52,342 nucleotides of DNA from Lachnospiraceae bacterium (lineage in GTDB: Bacteria; Bacillota; Clostridia; Lachnospirales; Lachnospiraceae), in the NCBI GenBank assembly GCA_017532145.1, contig JAFXJR010000026.1:1-52342 (forward strand). The letters run 5' to 3'. Each line of letters starts with the position of its first letter. Within the stretch, counting starts at the first letter, position 1. The notes beneath the pieces were generated by a model. It did no database searches and had not been told where the DNA came from. It worked only from the letters and a program-made list of their open reading frames with translations. The position numbers and the translations under genes were made by a program. Shown piece by piece: positions 14,484-25,359 of this stretch.

Positions 14484-14544
14484 TAGAAAAAGGGGAAAAA
14501 GTAAGAGAAAAAGCAAAATAAAAAATAAGGTGGAGAAAAACAAG

Positions 14545-17500
14545 ATGAAGAAAAAATACTATTTAGGATTAGATTTGGGTACAGGCTCTGTGGGATGGGC
14601 AGTAACCGATGAACATTATCAGCTATTAAGGGCAAAGGGAAAGGATTTGTGGGGAGTCAGGCTTTTTGATACCGCTAATACAGCAGAAAAACGCAGGATA
14701 AATCGTGTATCCAGAAGACGGAGACAGAGAGAAAAAGCAAGAATCGGATACATAAAAGAAATCTTTGCAGAAGAAATAAATAAGGTAGACCCAGGATTTT
14801 TGCAGCGACTGGAGGATAGTAAATATTGGCAGGAGGATAAGCGGGAGAAACAACCTTTTGCCCTGTTTGCAGACAGTGGATTTACCGATAAGGATTACTA
14901 TAAAAAATATCCTACTATCTTCCATCTGCGTAAGGAATTGATAGAGTCTGAGGAAGTTCATGATATTCGACTGGTTTATCTGGCCATTTTAAATATATAC
15001 AAGCATAGAGGTCATTTTTTGAATGAGAGTTTGTCAGATGGACAAATGGGGAATCTGGAGGAACTATATGCAGCCTTACAGGAGCTGACAGACAGTAGTG
15101 CTTGGGATGTGGGAAAACGACAGGAATTTGAGCAGCTATTAGTAAATAAGAAATTATCCAGATTGGAAAAAGTCAATCAGCTAAGAGAATTGCTGAATAT
15201 CAAAAAAAATTCATGTGATGAGGAAATGCTTAAGCTGATTTGTGGATTAAAAGGAAGGATAGACAAGATTTTTCCTGGTGAGAATCGAGAAGAACAGAAG
15301 AATCTGCAGGAGAAACAAGAGCTTTCTTTTATGGAGGGAGATATTGAGCAAAAAATTGATAATCTGGAGGAAGAACTGGAGGAAACACAGATAGATATAC
15401 TGTGGCTGCTAAAGAGCATTCATGACTGGAGACTATTGGCTCATATTATGCAGGGGGAGAAAGGAGTGTGTGCCTATCTGTCTCAGGCAAGGGTAGAGGC
15501 CTATGAAAAGCATCATCAAGATTTACTCAGATTAAAGAAAGTTTACCGACTCTATGCAGCAGATAAATTTAATAAGATGTTTCGGATAATGGGGGGAAAT
15601 AATTACAGTGATTATGTGGGTTCTGTTTGTGCAAAGGAGCAGCTTCGCAGACGAGACAATAGAAAGTTGGATACAGAGGGATTTTTTAAACAGCTGAAAA
15701 AGGATGTTATGGCAATGCCTGAAGATGAGGATACCGCCTACATCCTGCACGAACTTGACAAAGGAACGTTTTTGCCTAAGCAACTGACCTCAGACAATGG
15801 AGTGATTCCTAATCAGATACATAAGGCAGAGCTGAAAAAAATACTCAGAAATGCAGAGGCTTATCTGCCTTTTCTAGCCCAAAAGGATGATAGTGGGTTA
15901 TCCGCCAGTGAGAGAATTATCAGTTTATTTGCCTTTCAAATTCCCTATTATATTGGACCCTTAAGGAATACAGAGACAAATGGTGCATGGGTAGTCAGAA
16001 GGAATGAGGAGGGAAGGATTTTTCCCTGGAACTTTTCTCAAAAAGTGGATGAAAAAAAGACAGCTGAGGAGTTTAAGAAGAAGCTGATTAACCATTGTAC
16101 CTATTTAAATCAGGAAACTGTACTGCCTAAACAGTCACTTCTGTATGAAAGGTTTATGGTATTAAATGAGTTGAATAACCTGAAGATAAATGGAGAAAAA
16201 ATTTCGGTAGAGTTAAAGCAGGAGTTGTATCGGGAGCTGTTTGCCGGTGGAAAGAAGGTTACCGGTAAACGGGTAGAAAGCTATCTGAAGCAGCACGGAT
16301 ATGTGGAAAAATCGGATAAAGTAGTACTGGAGGGTATTGAGCAGGATTTTAAATGTACTTTGGCTAATCATGCGAAATTTACCCAGATTTTTGGAGTGAA
16401 GAGTCTGAATATAGAGCAGATAAGGATGGCTGAGCAGTTAATTTCCTGGGCGACTATCTATGGGAACTCCAAAGATTACTTGAGGGAACAGATTCAGGAG
16501 TATTATGGAGAACAACTGAACACAGAACAGATAAAACGCCTGTTGGGGATGAAATTTAAAGACTGGGGACGTTTATCCCGCCAACTGTTGGAAATGGAAG
16601 GAGCAGATAAGGCTACCGGAGAAAAAATGACTATTATTCAGCGGATGTGGGAAGAAAACTACAATCTGATGGAATTGCTCAGTGGTAATTTTACCTATTG
16701 GGAGGAGATTCAGGAGAAGACAATTCAGCTGGAGAAAAGTTTGGAGGAAATAGAGTATGAGGACTTACAGGAGTTGTATCTTTCTGTTCCGGTGAAAAGG
16801 ATAGTGTGGCAGACACTTCTGATTTTAAAAGAATTGCGGCAGGTACTGGGTACAGACCCGGAGAGAATCTTTATTGAGATGGCCAGAGGGGAGGAAATGG
16901 AAAAGACCCGAAAGGATAGCAGAAAAAAGAAGCTGGAGAAACTGTATAAATCCTGTGGAGAGGAAGGAAAATTCTGGAGTAAAAAGCTGGAATCTATAGA
17001 TGAGGCACAGTTAAGGCAGAAGAAACTGTATCTATATTATCTGCAAATGGGAAAGTGTATGTATACAGGAGAGCCTATTGATTTAGGGAAGCTGTTTTAT
17101 GATAACTTTTATGATATTGACCATATTTATCCCAAACATTTTGTGAAGGATGACAGTATAGAAAACAATCTGATATTGGTAAAGAAGGAAGAAAATTCAG
17201 ATAAAAAAGACGAATTTCCCATTAAAGAAACAATTCGTAAAAATATGCGCAGCTGGTGGGAATTTTTAAAGGAAAAGGAACTCATTAATCTGGAAAAATA
17301 TAAGAGATTGACCCGCCATACACCTTTTACTGTGGAGGAGCAGGCAGGATTTATTAGCAGACAACTGGTAGAGACAAGGCAGGGAACAAAGACAGTGGCA
17401 GAGTTACTGAAGAAAATATTTCCGGCAAGTGAAGTGGTTTATGTGAAAGCAGATAATGTGAGTCAATTCAGGGATTCGGATAAAAAGTACAAGAGCCTGA

Positions 17501-18612
17501 TTAAATGCAGAGAGGTAAATGATTTCCACCATGCTCATGATGCTTATCTGAATATTGTGGTAGGAAACGTGTATGATACTAAGTTTACAAAGAATCCCAT
17601 TCATTTTGTTAGGGAATATAAAGAAAATCCTGACCAACATAAGTATCATATGTATTATATGTTTAATTTCGATGTTATCCGGGGAGATAGAGTGGCATGG
17701 AAAGCAGGAGAGGCAGGAAGTATCCGGACGGTAAAGGCTGTATTGCAGAGGAATACCGTTTTGGTGACAAGGAGAAGCTGCATTACAAGGGGAAAGATTG
17801 CGGAGCAGACAATCTATAGTGCAAAAAAAGCGGCTAAAGGAACAGGATATATTCCCATCAAATCTTCAGATACCATTTTGAGAGAGATGAGTAAATATGG
17901 AGGATATACGACGGTTATAGGCAGTAAGTTCTTTCTGGTGGAGCATGAGGAGAAAGGAAAAAGGATAAGAACCTTGGAGGTAATTTTGTTGCCAATGGAA
18001 GGACAGTTGGATACCAGGGAGAAGCTGGAAGACTACTGTGAGAAACAGCTGGGCTATCAAAAGGCATCAGTGAGAATACAAGAAATAAAGATGGGCTCAT
18101 TGATTAAAGTAGACGGTTTTTATCTCTATTTAACAGGACGGTCTCAATCACGATTGTCAGTGACGAATGCGGTGCAGATGATATTAAGTCAGGAGCAAAT
18201 GTACTATGTAAAGAGAATGAAGGATTTAATGGACAGGAATCTGACAGAAGAACAGTTGGAGTTAGATAAGATAATCAGCCGGGAAAAAAATCTGGAATTA
18301 TATTATACGTTGATGCAGAAGCATAAGGATGGTATCTATGGAAAGCGTCCAAATTCGATAGGAAAGAAGCTGACAGAAGGAGAAAGCCTGTTTAAAGAGC
18401 TGGAAATAAAACAGCAAATATTTGTATTACTTCAGATTCTGATGCTGTCACAGCGAAGTAATAATGGAGTAGATTTACGCAATATTGGAGGAAGCAAGCA
18501 GGCAGGTGTAGCTACCTTGAATAAAAAAATTACAGAAAAAGAAGAATTTAAGCTAATCAATCAGTCGGTAACAGGTCTATATGAAAATGAGATAGACCTG
18601 TTAAGAGTATGA
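14545..18612 (+). CDS. cas9: CRISPR-associated endonuclease Cas9, type II-A
   Basis: This 1355-residue Cas9 cuts DNA under crRNA:tracrRNA guidance. All catalytic motifs are present: RuvC-I LGLDLGTGSVGWAV with Asp10, RuvC-II FIEMARGEEM with Glu778, and HNH YDIDHIYPKHF with His860. RuvC-III HHAHDAYLN has His996 and Asp999. The arginine-rich bridge helix (RRINRVSRRRRQREKAR) lies near residues 52-68. Length and the presence of csn2 fit II-A. ATG 14545 is preferred over GTG 14530 because the AAGGTGGAG RBS sits just upstream and the start then aligns with other Cas9 proteins. cas1 overlaps its end (ATGA). Interference should be functional. Confidence 0.97.
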   Translation: MKKKYYLGLDLGTGSVGWAVTDEHYQLLRAKGKDLWGVRLFDTANTAEKRRINRVSRRRRQREKARIGYIKEIFAEEINKVDPGFLQRLEDSKYWQEDKREKQPFALFADSGFTDKDYYKKYPTIFHLRKELIESEEVHDIRLVYLAILNIYKHRGHFLNESLSDGQMGNLEELYAALQELTDSSAWDVGKRQEFEQLLVNKKLSRLEKVNQLRELLNIKKNSCDEEMLKLICGLKGRIDKIFPGENREEQKNLQEKQELSFMEGDIEQKIDNLEEELEETQIDILWLLKSIHDWRLLAHIMQGEKGVCAYLSQARVEAYEKHHQDLLRLKKVYRLYAADKFNKMFRIMGGNNYSDYVGSVCAKEQLRRRDNRKLDTEGFFKQLKKDVMAMPEDEDTAYILHELDKGTFLPKQLTSDNGVIPNQIHKAELKKILRNAEAYLPFLAQKDDSGLSASERIISLFAFQIPYYIGPLRNTETNGAWVVRRNEEGRIFPWNFSQKVDEKKTAEEFKKKLINHCTYLNQETVLPKQSLLYERFMVLNELNNLKINGEKISVELKQELYRELFAGGKKVTGKRVESYLKQHGYVEKSDKVVLEGIEQDFKCTLANHAKFTQIFGVKSLNIEQIRMAEQLISWATIYGNSKDYLREQIQEYYGEQLNTEQIKRLLGMKFKDWGRLSRQLLEMEGADKATGEKMTIIQRMWEENYNLMELLSGNFTYWEEIQEKTIQLEKSLEEIEYEDLQELYLSVPVKRIVWQTLLILKELRQVLGTDPERIFIEMARGEEMEKTRKDSRKKKLEKLYKSCGEEGKFWSKKLESIDEAQLRQKKLYLYYLQMGKCMYTGEPIDLGKLFYDNFYDIDHIYPKHFVKDDSIENNLILVKKEENSDKKDEFPIKETIRKNMRSWWEFLKEKELINLEKYKRLTRHTPFTVEEQAGFISRQLVETRQGTKTVAELLKKIFPASEVVYVKADNVSQFRDSDKKYKSLIKCREVNDFHHAHDAYLNIVVGNVYDTKFTKNPIHFVREYKENPDQHKYHMYYMFNFDVIRGDRVAWKAGEAGSIRTVKAVLQRNTVLVTRRSCITRGKIAEQTIYSAKKAAKGTGYIPIKSSDTILREMSKYGGYTTVIGSKFFLVEHEEKGKRIRTLEVILLPMEGQLDTREKLEDYCEKQLGYQKASVRIQEIKMGSLIKVDGFYLYLTGRSQSRLSVTNAVQMILSQEQMYYVKRMKDLMDRNLTEEQLELDKIISREKNLELYYTLMQKHKDGIYGKRPNSIGKKLTEGESLFKELEIKQQIFVLLQILMLSQRSNNGVDLRNIGGSKQAGVATLNKKITEKEEFKLINQSVTGLYENEIDLLRV

Positions 18613-19481
18613 GCTGGAGAACCGTTGTCGTATCTAACAATGCCAAGCTGGATTACCAGCTTGGCTATCTGGTGGTCAGGGGAAGGGAGACAACGAAAAT
18701 CTATCTGCAGGAAATAGGGATTCTGCTTATAGAAAGTACGGCTGTTTCCCTGACCAGCTATCTGTTAAATGAATTGATAAAGCGTAAGATTAAGATAATT
18801 TTTTGTGATGAAAAAAGAAATCCTTCATCGGAGCTTTTACCTTACTATGGAAGCCATGATACCAGTATCAGGTTACAAAGGCAGATAGAGTGGACACAGG
18901 AGGATAAAACGACGGTATGGACAAAAATTGTCAGGGAGAAAATATGGCAGCAGGCAGTACTGTTAGAAAAGTTACAAAAACAGGAAGCAGAGTTGCTAAA
19001 GGAATATATTCAGGAGGTAAAAGAGGGAGACATATCTAATCGGGAATGACATGCAGCTAAGGTTTACTTCCATGCCTTGTTTGGAAAAGAATTTGCCAGA
19101 ACGCAGGAACATCCGATTAATGCTGCATTAAACTATGGTTATACTATCCTGTTATCCTATTTCAATCGGGAAATCACGGCAAATGGATATGTGACACAGT
19201 TGGGATTATTCCATGAAAACAGGTTTAATCCATTTAATCTGGGTTCAGATTTAATGGAGCCATACCGGCCTTTGGTGGATGAAGTGGTGTACTGCTTAAA
19301 CCCGGAAAGGTTTGAAACGGAAGAAAAGCATAAAATATTGAAGCTATGTGAGAAGCAGGTAATGATTGCAGAGAGAAAAGAATTTTTGGATGGTGCGATT
19401 AAGATGTATGTAAGAAGTGTATTGGAAGCATTAAATCATAAAACCTTTTCACAAATAAAATTTTATCAAAATGAGTTATAG
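18609..19481 (+). pseudogene. cas1: Cas1 integrase gene interrupted by an in-frame TGA
   Basis: Cas1 is the integrase that inserts new spacers with Cas2. The reading frame runs from ATG 18609 (overlapping the cas9 stop) and continues in the same frame to 19481, a normal II-A length of about 290 codons. Codon 147 (19047-19049) is TGA. The junction reads SNRE-stop-HAAKVYF where the family has NREGHAAKVYF, so a single G-to-T change of a GGA glycine codon explains it. The catalytic Glu is the last residue before the stop. The rest, including HPINAALNYGYTILLSYF and GLFHENRFNPFNLGSDLMEP, is well preserved. Either a recent null mutation or a base-call error is possible. Confidence 0.93.
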
Positions 19482-19791
19482 ATATATGAGAATAATTGTA
19501 ATGTTTGATTTACCTACAGTGACCATGACAGACAAAAGAGAATATACCCTTTTTAGAAAATTTTTATTAAAAAATGGTTTTTTCATGCTGCAGCAGAGTA
19601 TTTATTGTAAGCTGGCACAAAATGCCGTGGCAGCAGATAGTATCGTGGAAAAGGTGAAAAAGAATAAGCCTCCAGCAGGCTCTGTCATGTTGTTAAAGGT
19701 AACAGAGAAACAGTTTTCCAAGATGGAGTATATTGTAGGAGAGGCTTCGGGTGAAATATTAGATACAGATGAAAGGCTGGTGATACTGTGA
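19471..19791 (+). CDS. cas2: CRISPR-associated Cas2
   Basis: The 106-residue protein has the Cas2 ferredoxin-like start MRIIVMFDLPTVTMTDKREY with the expected Asp after IVMF. FRKFLLKNGFFMLQQSIYCK follows and the end is DTDERLVIL. It forms the Cas1-Cas2 integration complex. The start (ATGAGTTATAG at 19471) overlaps the cas1 end by 11 bases and its stop overlaps csn2 by 4, so translation is coupled. It is intact but would lack an active Cas1 partner if the upstream nonsense mutation is real. Confidence 0.95.
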   Translation: MSYRYMRIIVMFDLPTVTMTDKREYTLFRKFLLKNGFFMLQQSIYCKLAQNAVAADSIVEKVKKNKPPAGSVMLLKVTEKQFSKMEYIVGEASGEILDTDERLVIL

Positions 19792-20459
19792 TACTAACCA
19801 ATGCGGAGTATGGTCTGCGAATAGAGTTTATTGAGGGGAGAAGCTGCAAGCTGATTCTGGAAAATCCAAAGGACATGGCATATCTGGCAGAAGTATTATG
19901 TGGACAATGTGCAGGGAAGGAAGGCGATTTCCTTTTATCCTGTCAGGAAAAAGAGTATAAAATAGAAAAGTATATGGAGGTTATTGTAAATCCGTTCAAT
20001 ATTGATTTTAACAGCCGAAAAATATTAAATAGGCTGTATAGTGAGCTTACTGCATTGGCAGTGGATTATATAATAGAAAAGAGTGAGTTAAATGCAAAAA
20101 TTGTTCAGCTCATGGAAAAAATTTGTTCCTCAGCAAGATATAATCATATTTGCTATGATATGGATTTTGATTGGACAGACCTGCTGAAGTTTTGTAAGGT
20201 AAGGATGGAAAGTGATAATGGCACATTGATTGAAAGGTTGGATGAATATATAAAAATGGCAGCATCATTATGTGGAATACAGATTCTGTGTATGATTAAT
20301 ATATCCAGTTATCTGTGTGAGGAGGAAATCCGAGAATTAAAGCAGATAGCAAACTATCAAAAAATGTATTTATTATTTATTGAAGCAAGGGAAGGGATAA
20401 AAGACAAAGATGAAGACATTTACATTATTGACAGGGACAGATGTTTAATTGTAAAATAA
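19788..20459 (+). CDS. csn2: CRISPR-associated Csn2, type II-A
   Basis: The 223-residue protein has the Csn2 pattern: an N-terminal LTNAEYGLRIEFIEG, a helical middle, and a C-terminal half with FVxIxxYLxxEExxEL-like spacing (MINISSYLCEEEIRELKQIA). The end is IIDRDRCLIVK. Csn2 forms a DNA-clamping tetramer required for spacer acquisition in II-A systems, and its presence defines the subtype. GTG 19788 overlaps cas2 by four bases. Its 3' end contains the predicted promoter of the CRISPR array. Confidence 0.92.
   Translation: MILTNAEYGLRIEFIEGRSCKLILENPKDMAYLAEVLCGQCAGKEGDFLLSCQEKEYKIEKYMEVIVNPFNIDFNSRKILNRLYSELTALAVDYIIEKSELNAKIVQLMEKICSSARYNHICYDMDFDWTDLLKFCKVRMESDNGTLIERLDEYIKMAASLCGIQILCMINISSYLCEEEIRELKQIANYQKMYLLFIEAREGIKDKDEDIYIIDRDRCLIVK
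20428..20457 (+). promoter_or_regulatory. Promoter of the CRISPR array
   Basis: TTGACA (20428-20433), an 18-base spacer and TAAAAT (20452-20457), lying in the 3' end of csn2. A start near 20464 would produce a leader RNA of about 50 bases before repeat 1. Confidence 0.65.
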
Positions 20460-20515
20460 ATTATCATAATTTACACTATTTCACCAATAGACAGGTTCGG
20501 TGAGAACGATTTGAG
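20460..20515 (+). promoter_or_regulatory. CRISPR leader with anchoring sequence and an antisense copy of the repeat core
   Basis: The 56-base leader ends in ATTTGAG directly before repeat 1, identical to the leader-anchoring sequence reported for type II-A integration. Bases 20462-20475 (TATCATAATTTACA) are the exact reverse complement of repeat positions 13-26. Confidence 0.8.
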
Positions 20516-21214
20516 GTTTGAGAACCTTGTAAATTATGATAGTGTTAAAACAGGCTGGTCTATCCGATCCCTGCAGGCAACGTTTGAGAACCTTGTAAAT
20601 TATGATAGTGTTAAAACAGTACCGTAACCAGTATCAAGAACTTACCAGTTTGAGAACCTTGTAAATTATGATAGTGTTAAAACCGCAGGAACGTTTTGAT
20701 ACACTATTTAATACGTTTGAGAACCTTGTAAATTATGATAGTGTTAAAACTACTGATGTGGTGTTCTTTAAAACCTCCCAGTTTGAGAACCTTGTAAATT
20801 ATGATAGTGTTAAAACGTTAAAGCCATATTGAGGAGGTGATTAGCTGTTTGAGAACCTTGTAAATTATGATAGTGTTAAAACACCCGCACCCGCCGCTCC
20901 GGCCGCACTCCCAGGTTTGAGAACCTTGTAAATTATGATAGTGTTAAAACCTGTCCCATACTACTTGATGTTGGTGAACTGTTTGAGAACCTTGTAAATT
21001 ATGATAGTGTTAAAACTTTTTACTCATGTTTATCCCTCCATTATTTGTTTGAGAACCTTGTAAATTATGATAGTGTTAAAACAGCTTGGACTTTCATCAC
21101 TTTCTCCCTCCAGTTTGAGAACCTTGTAAATTATGATAGTGTTAAAACAAGCTATCCCAGAACCGACAGCAGAGCCCTGTTTGAGAACCTTGTAAATTAT
21201 GATAGTGTTAAAAC
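20516..21214 (+). CRISPR. CRISPR array, 11 repeats and 10 spacers
   Basis: Eleven apparently identical 36-bp repeats (start GTTTGAGAACCTTG, end GTGTTAAAAC) begin at 20516, 20582, 20648, 20715, 20781, 20847, 20915, 20981, 21047, 21113 and 21179. Spacers are 30 bases, except spacer 3 (31) and spacer 6 (32). The orientation is set by the leader, the csn2-proximal promoter and the tracrRNA pairing. Even the last repeat is undegenerate, which fits a fairly young array. Spacer 6 is unusually GC-rich. No spacer was found elsewhere in the window by eye. Confidence 0.98.
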
Positions 21215-21401
21215 GTCGAAATAAAGGAATTATGGGAAATATGGTAAAGAAAAGATATGCGGTAAGTTGCCAACGAACATTTGACGCAAACATCAATATA
21301 AGACTAGATTATCTTTAGTAAATATGTTAGAATTATAACTATAAATCATAAAAAAATAGGTAGTTTTTAATACTGCCCTATAAAAGAAAGGAGATAAAAT
21401 A

Positions 21402-22686: not shown

Positions 22687-22714
22687 TAAATTTTTTTTAT
22701 ATAATTGCCGATAA
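22687..22714 (+). promoter_or_regulatory. Sigma-28 (SigD/FliA) promoter of the flagellin gene
   Basis: TAAA (22687-22690), a 16-base spacer, GCCGATAA (22707-22714). It matches the sigma-28 consensus TAAA-N15-GCCGATAT with one extra spacer base. The flanking 22542-22686 is AT-rich with nothing else recognised. Confidence 0.85.
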
Positions 22715-22880: not shown

Positions 22881-22995
22881 ACCGGTCAAAGGGTTGGTGA
22901 ATGAATATTCGGTGTACTAGATAAAAAATAAATATCTGAAAAGTATAGTTCCCGTTGTCGTAGAAATATGTGTTTGATGAAGAAAGGTGAGAATA

Positions 22996-25212
22996 GTGAA
23001 AATTCAACATAATTTAGCGGCTATGAATGCAAACAGGAATATGAAAATTAATCTTGGGACATCAGTAGAGGCAACAGAGAGATTATCTTCTGGCTATCGG
23101 GTTAATCGTGGAGCAGACGATGCGGCCGGTTTGTCTATTTCTGAGAAGATGCGCAGATTGATTCGTGGATTAGGACAGGCAAGTTTAAATTGTCAGGATG
23201 GTATTTCTCTGGTACAGACCGCAGAGGGAGCCTTGCATGAGGTACATGATATGCTTCAACGGATGAATGTACTTGCAGTGCAGTCAGCTAACGGTACAAA
23301 TGCAAAGGAGGAAAGACAAGCCTTACAACAGGAATTTGCCCATATTCAGGACGAGATAGACAGGGTTTCGGAGACTACTAAATTTAATGATATGAATCTG
23401 TTTACCCGCCAGGACGGTGGTACAGGAACGACGAATGTTATTCGGACGAATTATATCAGTCAGGGGAATATGCTGTCAGTAACCGGTGTGGGCGGAGCGG
23501 ATAGCCTTGGGTCTGTTAGACAGATTGTAAATTCACAGAATGTTAGGGCACAGACGCCCAGTGTACAGTGGGGTGATTATACCATCACAGGAGGTGTAGA
23601 GAATGTAGATTTCAGATTTTCAAGCACCACGATGACTATTCTATCCAGTAAACATCTTACCGTTTCCGGCACTGGTACACCCAGCGACACCAATAGGATT
23701 TCTGTTCAAAGCGGAGTTTCGGCAAATCTGACATTGAATAATATCCATATTGATGCGAGTACTTCAACCGGACCTGCCATGCGAGTGTATAATAATGCTT
23801 CCCTAAACCTGACTCTCACAGGAACAAATATAATAAAAGGTGGAGCAAACTATGCTGCTTTGGCAGTAACTTCGGGAGCCAAGCTGGTTATCACTGAGCA
23901 AAGTACTGGTAGTTTGGAGGCTATTGGTGGTGCATGTGGAGCAGGAATTGGCGGAGGCAATGTTAGCGGTATGCTATCGTCAGGAAATATCACCATTAAT
24001 GGGGGAACTGTCACCGCTCGAGGCGGAAGAATGGCATCAGGCATAGGCGGTGGTAATTATGGAGCAGGTGGCAATATTACCATCAACGGGGGAACGATTT
24101 ATGCAGTAGCTGGGAACAATGCAGCCAGTATAGGTGGTGGCGATCAAGGAAGCGGTGGCAACATTACGATTACCGGCGGTGATGTTACGGCACTTGGAAG
24201 TGTAAATGCTTCCGATATTGGAAAAGGTAGAAATGGTGATACCGGTTCATTTTCTACCGGTTCCAACGGTAATGCCGTAATTACCACAAATCACAATAAT
24301 ATTTCTGATACAAGCAACCAAAGTAATTGGGATGCTATTATTAAAAATGCGACTACCGGAACGGTTTATGGTAATGTAAAGCTTACCGAAGACTATACAG
24401 TAGAAGCGGGAGATACACTGAATATAGCAGATGGTGCAGCATTGACTACACCATCCGGCAAAGTGCTGACCAATGAGGGTACAATTAATAATAATGGTTT
24501 TATGGTCAACCACGGTACATTGATTAACAATGGTACGATTAACGGTAATGCAGGAAGTACGCTGAACAATACTGGTACCTTGATGAATGATGGAAACATA
24601 ACCAACAATACAGACAGCAGCCTGGAGAATAATGGACTGGTTGACAACAATGGTACATTGACAAATAATGGTACAGTGGATAATAATCCCAAGGGAATCA
24701 TAGATAATAGTGCCGGAGGTACTATCGATAATACGAAAGGATTAATCAGTAATAATGATGGTAAAATCCTTGGTCCTATTGTGGGTAATCCTCCGGTGGA
24801 GGGAGTAAATTCATTGTGGTTACAGGCAGGAGCGGATATAGGACATGGATTTAATATCCGGATTAATGTAATGAATACAGGGATACTTGGTATCAAGAAG
24901 AATGTAGTTAATATTCTGACACAGGAGTCCTCAGGTTCTGCTATTACTGCGATAAGTGAAGCCATTGGCAGACTGTCTGAACAGCGGAGCAAATTAGGAG
25001 TCTATCAGAATCGTCTGGAACATACCATCCGTAATTTGGATAATGTGGTAGAAAATACAACAAATATGGAAAGTCGGATTAGAGATGCTGATCTGGCAAA
25101 AGAGACGGTGAGACATTCTAATAATAAGATTATCCTGCAGGCTGCACAGGCAATGCTTGTACAGGCAAATCGACAGTCGGCAGACATTCTGCTCTTATTT
25201 AACGGCAGGTAA
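22996..25212 (+). CDS. Flagellin with a beta-solenoid-like insert in the variable region
   Basis: The 738-residue protein has flagellin termini and a foreign centre. Residues 1-140 are D0/D1 (MKIQHNLAAMNANRN, DDAAGLSISEKMRR). They include LQRMNVLAVQSANGTN, which keeps the TLR5-contact Arg and Leu, and a later QQEF keeps the Glu. Residues about 622-738 are the C-terminal D1/D0 (ESRIRDADLAKETVRHSNNK). Residues about 195-310 are beta-rich. About 312-412 hold three turns of GNITINGGTVTARGG with IGGG, as in Cthe_2159-like carbohydrate-binding solenoids. About 490-592 are Asn/Gly-rich short repeats (LTNNGTVDNN). GTG 22996 fits the family start and the AAAGGTGA RBS better than GTG 22987. No other flagellar gene is nearby. 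Confidence 0.93.
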   Translation: MKIQHNLAAMNANRNMKINLGTSVEATERLSSGYRVNRGADDAAGLSISEKMRRLIRGLGQASLNCQDGISLVQTAEGALHEVHDMLQRMNVLAVQSANGTNAKEERQALQQEFAHIQDEIDRVSETTKFNDMNLFTRQDGGTGTTNVIRTNYISQGNMLSVTGVGGADSLGSVRQIVNSQNVRAQTPSVQWGDYTITGGVENVDFRFSSTTMTILSSKHLTVSGTGTPSDTNRISVQSGVSANLTLNNIHIDASTSTGPAMRVYNNASLNLTLTGTNIIKGGANYAALAVTSGAKLVITEQSTGSLEAIGGACGAGIGGGNVSGMLSSGNITINGGTVTARGGRMASGIGGGNYGAGGNITINGGTIYAVAGNNAASIGGGDQGSGGNITITGGDVTALGSVNASDIGKGRNGDTGSFSTGSNGNAVITTNHNNISDTSNQSNWDAIIKNATTGTVYGNVKLTEDYTVEAGDTLNIADGAALTTPSGKVLTNEGTINNNGFMVNHGTLINNGTINGNAGSTLNNTGTLMNDGNITNNTDSSLENNGLVDNNGTLTNNGTVDNNPKGIIDNSAGGTIDNTKGLISNNDGKILGPIVGNPPVEGVNSLWLQAGADIGHGFNIRINVMNTGILGIKKNVVNILTQESSGSAITAISEAIGRLSEQRSKLGVYQNRLEHTIRNLDNVVENTTNMESRIRDADLAKETVRHSNNKIILQAAQAMLVQANRQSADILLLFNGR

Positions 25213-25260: not shown

Positions 25261-25359
25261 GTAACTGTTCAGTAGGTCTGCACACTTGTTGTGCTGACCA
25301 TACGAAAATATAAGTGTAGTGAGAAAAAATCCCATCGCCACAGGCGATGGGATTTTTTC
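25261..25359 (+). repeat. Dispersed palindromic repeat, copy C, supplying the flagellin terminator
   Basis: The first part reads GTAACTGTTCAGTAGGTCTG followed by CACACTTGTTGTGCTGACC. The second part (25323-25359) is a perfect 17-bp hairpin (stem end ATCCCATCGCC, loop ACA) with a run of six T, an excellent intrinsic terminator. Copy D near 51613 has the same two-part structure in the opposite direction. Confidence 0.9.

Follow-up and report, generated by a model that had tools for sequence, protein, structure and literature searches.

Flagellins are exported unfolded and assemble through their conserved D0 and D1 ends. Flagellins with inserted enzymes and other domains are already known: a survey of 26,587 flagellins recorded 61 domain types, with gluzincin (86), vWFA (21), and sialidase (10) among the entries of its top-ten table (Eckhard 2017, PMC5595980). 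The words "helix" and "solenoid" are absent from the main text of that survey. Adhesive beta-solenoids have been proposed to be transferable between stalks (PMC9210967, section 11), and the beta-helical Cthe_2159 proteins bind celluloses and polygalacturonate (PMC6712302) and are also said to bind chitin, with calcium required for ligand recognition (PMC8746771). Among the openly available papers listed, judged by title and the opening of the abstract, we found no report of beta-helix flagellins, nor of a glycan-binding-type beta-helix as a flagellin outer domain that recurs in two phyla; a clustering of flagellar outer domains (Fields 2024), which lies outside this comparison, may mention them. 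Here we describe a candidate protein of this kind from a Lachnospiraceae bacterium, encoded in the middle of a 52,342-nucleotide stretch of DNA (the window) that comprises an entire contig.

The gene occupies positions 22996..25212 on the plus strand, as do all features given below, and runs as a single open frame of 738 amino acids without internal stop from a GTG at 22996 to a stop codon ending at 25212, exactly where the original prediction had placed it. A second in-frame GTG at 22987 would yield 741 amino acids. A ribosome-binding-like AAAGGTGAG read from the sequence (22983..22991) precedes the GTG start. At 25330..25358 a terminator-like hairpin, an inverted repeat with a 10-bp stem and a 3-nt loop ahead of T6, was seen by eye, although a scan did not list it. 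When the whole protein was searched with Pfam, Flagellin_N (PF00669) matched residues 3-137 (144.1 bits against a cut-off of 26.6, E 3.7e-42) and Flagellin_C (PF00700) matched residues 650-734 (77.8 bits against a cut-off of 23, E 7.9e-22). The N-terminal D0/D1 helices (residues 1-137; 22996..23406) also align with the FliC of E. coli and with that of the same genome; the C-terminal D1/D0 part spans residues ca. 605-738 (24808..25209), and ca. 512 residues separate the two conserved ends. The residues that contact TLR5, which we take to be R90, L94, and E114 of enterobacterial FliC, had been predicted to be preserved. All three are retained, as R89, L93, and E113, but the adjoining Arg-Glu of E. 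coli is replaced by Asn-Val, so that this prediction is borne out in part. The protein terminates in LLLFNGR, compared with SLLQ in the FliC of its own genome. Such an altered end might suit a flagellin that is exported via the flagellum and then released as a soluble binding protein outside the filament, and some flagellins, such as C. jejuni FlaC, are secreted without being assembled (PMC5466977); however, the Flagellin_C model is covered nearly end to end (1-85 of 86), and we consider release unlikely.

Between these ends, recognizable solenoid-like sequence extends from residue ca. 190 to ca. 605, that is, over ca. 415 residues where about 425 had been claimed. It begins with a non-repetitive part (residues ca. 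190-312; 23563..23931), which aligns with domains of surface proteins and of Synergistota flagellins and lies within the stretch matching PDB 4peu. This part is followed by Gly-rich coils with a period of 29 residues (residues ca. 312-430; 23929..24285), by a connecting segment (residues ca. 431-487; 24286..24456) that is partly collinear with a surface protein (L047) of genome G019, and by an Asn-rich, short-repeat stalk (residues ca. 488-600; 24457..24795), with 28 Asn in residues 480-600 and spacings of 6/7 and 13 residues. Within residues 312-430, hydrophobic and Gly positions recur every 29 residues (z 4.8 and 4.5 against shuffling, with 126 combinations of residue class and period compared per stretch and the best one taken). 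The Beta_helix_3 model (PF18889) scored 38.6 bits on the insert alone, against a cut-off of 27, and 26.7 bits, just below it, on the whole protein. The protein is a flagellin in which a solenoid-like insert lies between intact termini, and its layout fits the claim that the insert stands in place of the usual variable domain.

The closest relatives of the insert are domains of surface proteins (52% identity), one of which carries S-layer anchors. Matches to the insert occur in 55 of 397 genomes of the family, the window's genome included, and the best of those listed, leaving aside the window itself, comes from G019: a protein of 1750 aa that has three SLH stretches and is 47% identical over residues 191-530. 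Pfam scans detected SLH anchors in two of four surface-protein relatives and Beta_helix_3 in all eight aligned relatives of the insert; in nine further surface proteins, Beta_helix_3 was found in eight and dockerin in three. Members of the domain family were found in the flagellins of two phyla, and also in surface proteins whose assignments span several phyla; that the insert is akin to anchored surface proteins is thereby shown. Given these SLH- and dockerin-bearing relatives, the insert appears to be a module for display on cell or cellulosome surfaces. One protein encountered among them, from Ruminococcus albus 8 (L149:2786-4780), begins with a ubiquitin domain (PF00240, E 1.4e-29), followed by an X25 pullulanase-type domain and Beta_helix_3 repeats. 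The Asn-rich stalk has a separate affinity: it is common to the window flagellin and to L103, a 1295-aa flagellin of a different genus in the family, the two being 35% identical over 165 aa (E 2e-14), and profile-profile comparison detected no relation between the stalk and the main solenoid (0.4%).

The middle of the protein had been said to resemble secreted carbohydrate-binding proteins. Its kinship with secreted and anchored surface proteins held up; the evidence for carbohydrate binding is weaker and comes from three sources. First, the only PDB match of the insert-family profile at E up to 10 is 4peu/4phb (E 1e-5, ca. 219 positions aligned), whose entry title reads "uncharacterized protein"; we take these entries to be Cthe_2159, the cellulose/pectate-binding beta-helix of Close 2014. 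Second, two bridging proteins overlap with PF14262, the corresponding Pfam family. In a 1364-aa protein of the same genus (G100:C2), one stretch matches both the insert (41%, E 1e-12) and PF14262 (26.1 bits, just above the cut-off of 25.8), and in G024:C47 the stretch that matches the insert also matches PF14262, below the cut-off. Third, when a profile of eight solenoids was compared with one of six PF14262 members, the two were collinear over 152 columns, albeit weakly (38% probability, E 3e-4). PF14262 was not listed for the window flagellin at E up to 1 (whole protein) or 0.1 (insert), and the whole genome of the organism gave no match to it. No carbohydrate-binding family of Pfam or NCBIfam matched the insert, and none of Pfam matched the eight aligned relatives. 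On these comparisons, a distant kinship between the insert and Cthe_2159/PF14262 is probable, and the description "carbohydrate-binding-like" is plausible but distant.

The same matches bear on whether the predicted beta-helix might be an enzyme of polysaccharide-lyase-like type, which would make the protein an enzymatic flagellin akin to flagellinolysin. The family to which we assign 4peu/4phb has been described as lyase-like, and an HExxH-type insert is present in two other flagellins of this genome. However, no polysaccharide-lyase family matched the protein, the insert, or the aligned relatives. In two eight-row alignments, the positions that never vary hold Gly, Asn, Ala, Ile, or Leu, and neither alignment contains a conserved acidic, basic, or His residue. 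Catalysis by the insert is therefore very unlikely, and a binding module is the reading of the domain that we prefer.

The genome encodes six proteins with Flagellin_N matches, namely five flagellins and one FlgL-like protein. In addition to the 738-aa solenoid type, the flagellins comprise a plain 274-aa FliC, a 388-aa protein, and two proteins with a HEMMH insert (771 and 718 aa), which are taken as flagellinolysin-type from that motif alone; no HExxH motif was seen by eye in the solenoid flagellin. The plain fliC lies on another contig, adjoining genes that look fliD- and fliS-like by eye. In both of the HEMMH-bearing flagellins (L009:8612-10927 and L010:8908-11064), the C-terminal end is preceded by a long low-complexity linker rich in Gly. 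Because two other flagellins carry HExxH-type inserts, diversified outer domains appear to be habitual in this genome.

No second flagellin with the same solenoid was found in the window's own family among the matches listed for sets of 100 and 397 genomes of the family, 16 of the genus, 392 of the order, and 398 of the phylum. The rankings in these sets were based on differing parts of the query, and distant examples could be missed. Insert matches coincided with flagellin places at two family loci among those listed. One is a 568-aa flagellin of G080 that matches just the last 68 query residues, mostly the start of D1. The other is L103 (931-4818, minus strand), which shares the stalk and its D1 junction with the window flagellin; its main insert is different, being large, Asn-rich, and solenoid-looking by eye, with no Pfam model at E up to 0.01. 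Two flagellins from another family of the order (G544 and G574) gave full-length matches of 33-34% and were rejected as the same fusion: composition-corrected blastp, read up to E 1e-3, aligned the N-terminal core alone, and their inserts look by eye like ordinary Thr/Ala-rich outer domains. Synteny was likewise discarded for the closest core, that of G108 (71-72% in the N-terminal part), where, of the ORFs in the surrounding 39.4 kb, the flagellin alone matched an ORF of the window.

The lack of an orthologue with the same complete architecture in the family, among the matches listed, together with the fragmentation of the genome into 134 contigs, raises the question of whether the gene is an assembly chimera or broken. 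Against this stand the single open frame in mid-contig, a GC content of 0.37-0.48 across the gene, the recurrence of the stalk and D1 junction in another genus, and the fact that both ends match one single flagellin of the genus (72% over 134 residues and 47% over 139 residues). An artifact of this kind is thus extremely improbable, and we treat the fusion as genuine.

Other flagellins of relatives are also diverse, and their conserved ends lie as many as 1582 residues apart. In 11 of the 12 that were scanned, no Pfam domain besides the flagellin ends scored above its cut-off, although three of these flagellins (L057-L059) have an HExxH by eye. Five family flagellins of 1248-1824 aa (L050-L054) have inserts that look mutually alike by eye and have no above-cut-off Pfam domain, except for an adenovirus penton base match in L053 (25.8 bits, just above the cut-off of 25). 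Repeat-rich, solenoid-looking inserts were also noticed in L106 (1471 aa) and L057 (961 aa), the latter pairing HExxH with such repeats; at E 0.05-0.08, their kinship with the window solenoid was not shown, and both were set aside as relatives. Several flagellin genes stand in a row on one contig in G080:C14 (L013) and in G305:C10 (L125), and two of the G080 cores are near-identical.

This free variation of the outer parts, the shortage of recognizable domains in them, and the presence in L103 of a different solenoid-looking insert on the same stalk are what would be expected if the solenoid were a bulky, variable outer coat, mechanical or antigenic, that has no ligand and for which any stable repeat fold would serve. 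We regard such a coat as possible, though the less probable reading, and it is countered by the finding that the same domain family, not unrelated bulk each time, occurs in the flagellins of two phyla and in surface proteins of several. A ligand-binding outer domain thus remains our preferred account.

The second phylum is Synergistota. A scan of named genomes with the insert as the single query gave no matches. When the insert was combined with its G019 relative and the best 80 of at least 217 relatives were examined, flagellins were found at three loci (L171, L208, and L212), all from Synergistales or Synergistaceae records; L171 comes from red deer and L208, which is truncated at a contig end, from goat reticulum. 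In all three, the solenoid appears to have been added and a further outer flagellin segment kept, unlike in the window protein. Solenoid matches were then counted in 46 of 180 Synergistia genomes at E up to 1e-6. We examined 60 loci (20 returned by the search and 40 fetched) from 38 of these 46 genomes; the remaining eight, with best E values of 7e-25 to 8e-7, and part of the matches within the 38 lie outside this set. A solenoid frame was present at 59 of the 60 loci, with a flagellin N or C end in 46 of the 59 and neither in 13. The N end, the solenoid, and the C end occurred together in 31 single frames from 22 genomes, and the solenoid lay between the ends in every one. Pfam placed Flagellin_N, Flagellin_C, and Beta_helix_3 all above cut-off in seven of eight Synergistota flagellins, L212 lacking Beta_helix_3. 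The search for flagellins with the same insertion, proposed along with the original prediction, therefore returned homologues carrying the fusion, so that a lack of such homologues, named there as grounds for refutation, does not apply. PDB 9au6 was considered as a solved solenoid flagellin, as it aligned over positions 1-380 of a Synergistota profile, and was rejected because the match consisted of the core and outer segments and was poor through the solenoid region.

How the fusion arose in the two groups was addressed with separate trees of cores and solenoids. In a tree of 115 flagellin cores built by a quick method, the window falls inside the 52-row set of its own family (support 96) and the 33 Synergistota cores form one set (support 99). 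This tree also pairs L045 with the window core, which is a long-branch join and was disregarded. These separate core groups point to repeated recruitment or to domain transfer. The window solenoid is nearer to surface proteins (52% identity) than to the best Synergistota flagellin (46%), which fits separate recruitment. In the solenoid tree, 67 of 131 inner branches are open. When every flagellin solenoid was constrained to a single clade, the likelihood improved on that of the free search by 19 log units (p-AU 0.676), which counts against separate recruitment. The tree is compatible with a single flagellin-solenoid clade and fits it slightly better, so that the solenoid may have been transferred between flagellins. 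Between repeated recruitment and domain transfer, the solenoid tree does not decide.

The gene was also predicted to stand alone, away from other flagellar genes, under a sigma-28 promoter. The first part was borne out among the 11 neighboring ORFs scanned, 10 of which had a Pfam match and none a flagellar one. Upstream are an alcohol dehydrogenase gene and a CRISPR-cas locus with cas9 and csn2, a set that we take to denote type II-A, and downstream is a spoVT-like gene. The CRISPR locus (14530-21216) encodes a Cas9 of 1360 aa and Csn2, and its array comprises 11 or more repeats at a spacing of 66-68 nt; the Cas1 match is split between two consecutive ORFs (18609-19049 and 19077-19481) and so looks interrupted. 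The genome itself is a MAG-like assembly of 2.6 Mb in 134 contigs, estimated at 87% complete. The promoter claim fared less clearly. A sigma-28/sigma-D type promoter-like site (22687..22713) matches the consensus TAAA-N17-CCGATA exactly, starting 309 nt upstream of the start codon, and its function is presumed from that match. Exact matches within 400 nt upstream were found for just two of the five flagellin genes of the genome, the solenoid flagellin (309 nt) and the plain fliC (151 nt). A single match proves little, because the window contains three exact matches where 0.38 would be expected.

We infer the expression, export, assembly, fold, ligand, and adhesive role of the solenoid flagellin as follows. 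The gene would encode a flagellin, minor or alternative, in which a right-handed beta-helix of the Beta_helix_3 or distant Cthe_2159 kind, on an Asn-rich stalk, has taken the place of the outer domain. The protein is most likely expressed under sigma-28 and would leave the cell in unfolded form by the flagellar export channel; because the N-terminus is flagellin D0 from residue 3, we expect no Sec signal. It would then co-assemble with plain FliC via its D0/D1 ends. Since flagellins are exported unfolded and assemble through these ends, a self-contained beta-helix on a stalk could fold outside the filament and point outward, giving rows of sugar-binding modules that may help the cell adhere to a polysaccharide, such as plant fiber, mucus, or the coat of another cell. 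The account that we favor, at about even confidence and ahead of a coat lacking a ligand, is thus a filament subunit, probably a minor one, that adheres to glycans through a beta-helix outer domain.

A broader and more speculative view, which we consider rather doubtful, is that the flagellar filaments of gut anaerobes in at least two phyla serve as polymeric scaffolds onto which binding modules are repeatedly grafted, a motile counterpart of the cellulosome. In the window organism, plain FliC, the two peptidase-type flagellins, and the beta-helix flagellin might then form a single composite filament able both to grip a substrate coated with polysaccharide or mucus and to digest the protein in it. 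Some flagella may thus also serve as sticky filaments. If these filaments bind fiber or mucus, the flagella of many gut anaerobes would act in adhesion as well as propulsion, the motility genes of gut metagenomes would have to be reinterpreted, and the fusion would offer a natural template for displaying helical binding modules along a filament. The numerous Synergistota examples make the fusion testable without the window organism.

Several described systems resemble parts of this arrangement. Flagellinolysins likewise have a non-flagellar functional domain in the hypervariable region and are scattered across phyla (PMC5595980), but their domain is an HExxH peptidase, whereas that of the window flagellin is a predicted beta-helix devoid of the motif. 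Giant flagellins share the oversized outer inserts and occur in several phyla, including Synergistetes and Firmicutes; in contrast to the 738-aa window flagellin with its identified domain, they exceed 1000 aa, and those reported showed no similarity to enzyme domains (PMC6248924). Cthe_2159 (PF14262) is a beta-helix to which the insert-family profile aligns, and the insert probably has a similar fold; however, the insert scores below the Pfam cut-off, its Gly-rich IGGG coils differ, and no Cthe_2159 domain was seen on a flagellin. The Beta_helix_3 surface proteins that bear SLH or dockerin domains belong to the same domain family, with up to 52% identity, but they are anchored to the wall or the cellulosome rather than polymerized. 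Finally, EtpA of enterotoxigenic E. coli is a beta-helical adhesin that acts from the flagellum, where it bridges to host glycans; EtpA is a separate protein that binds flagellar tips, whereas in the window protein the predicted helix belongs to the flagellin itself.
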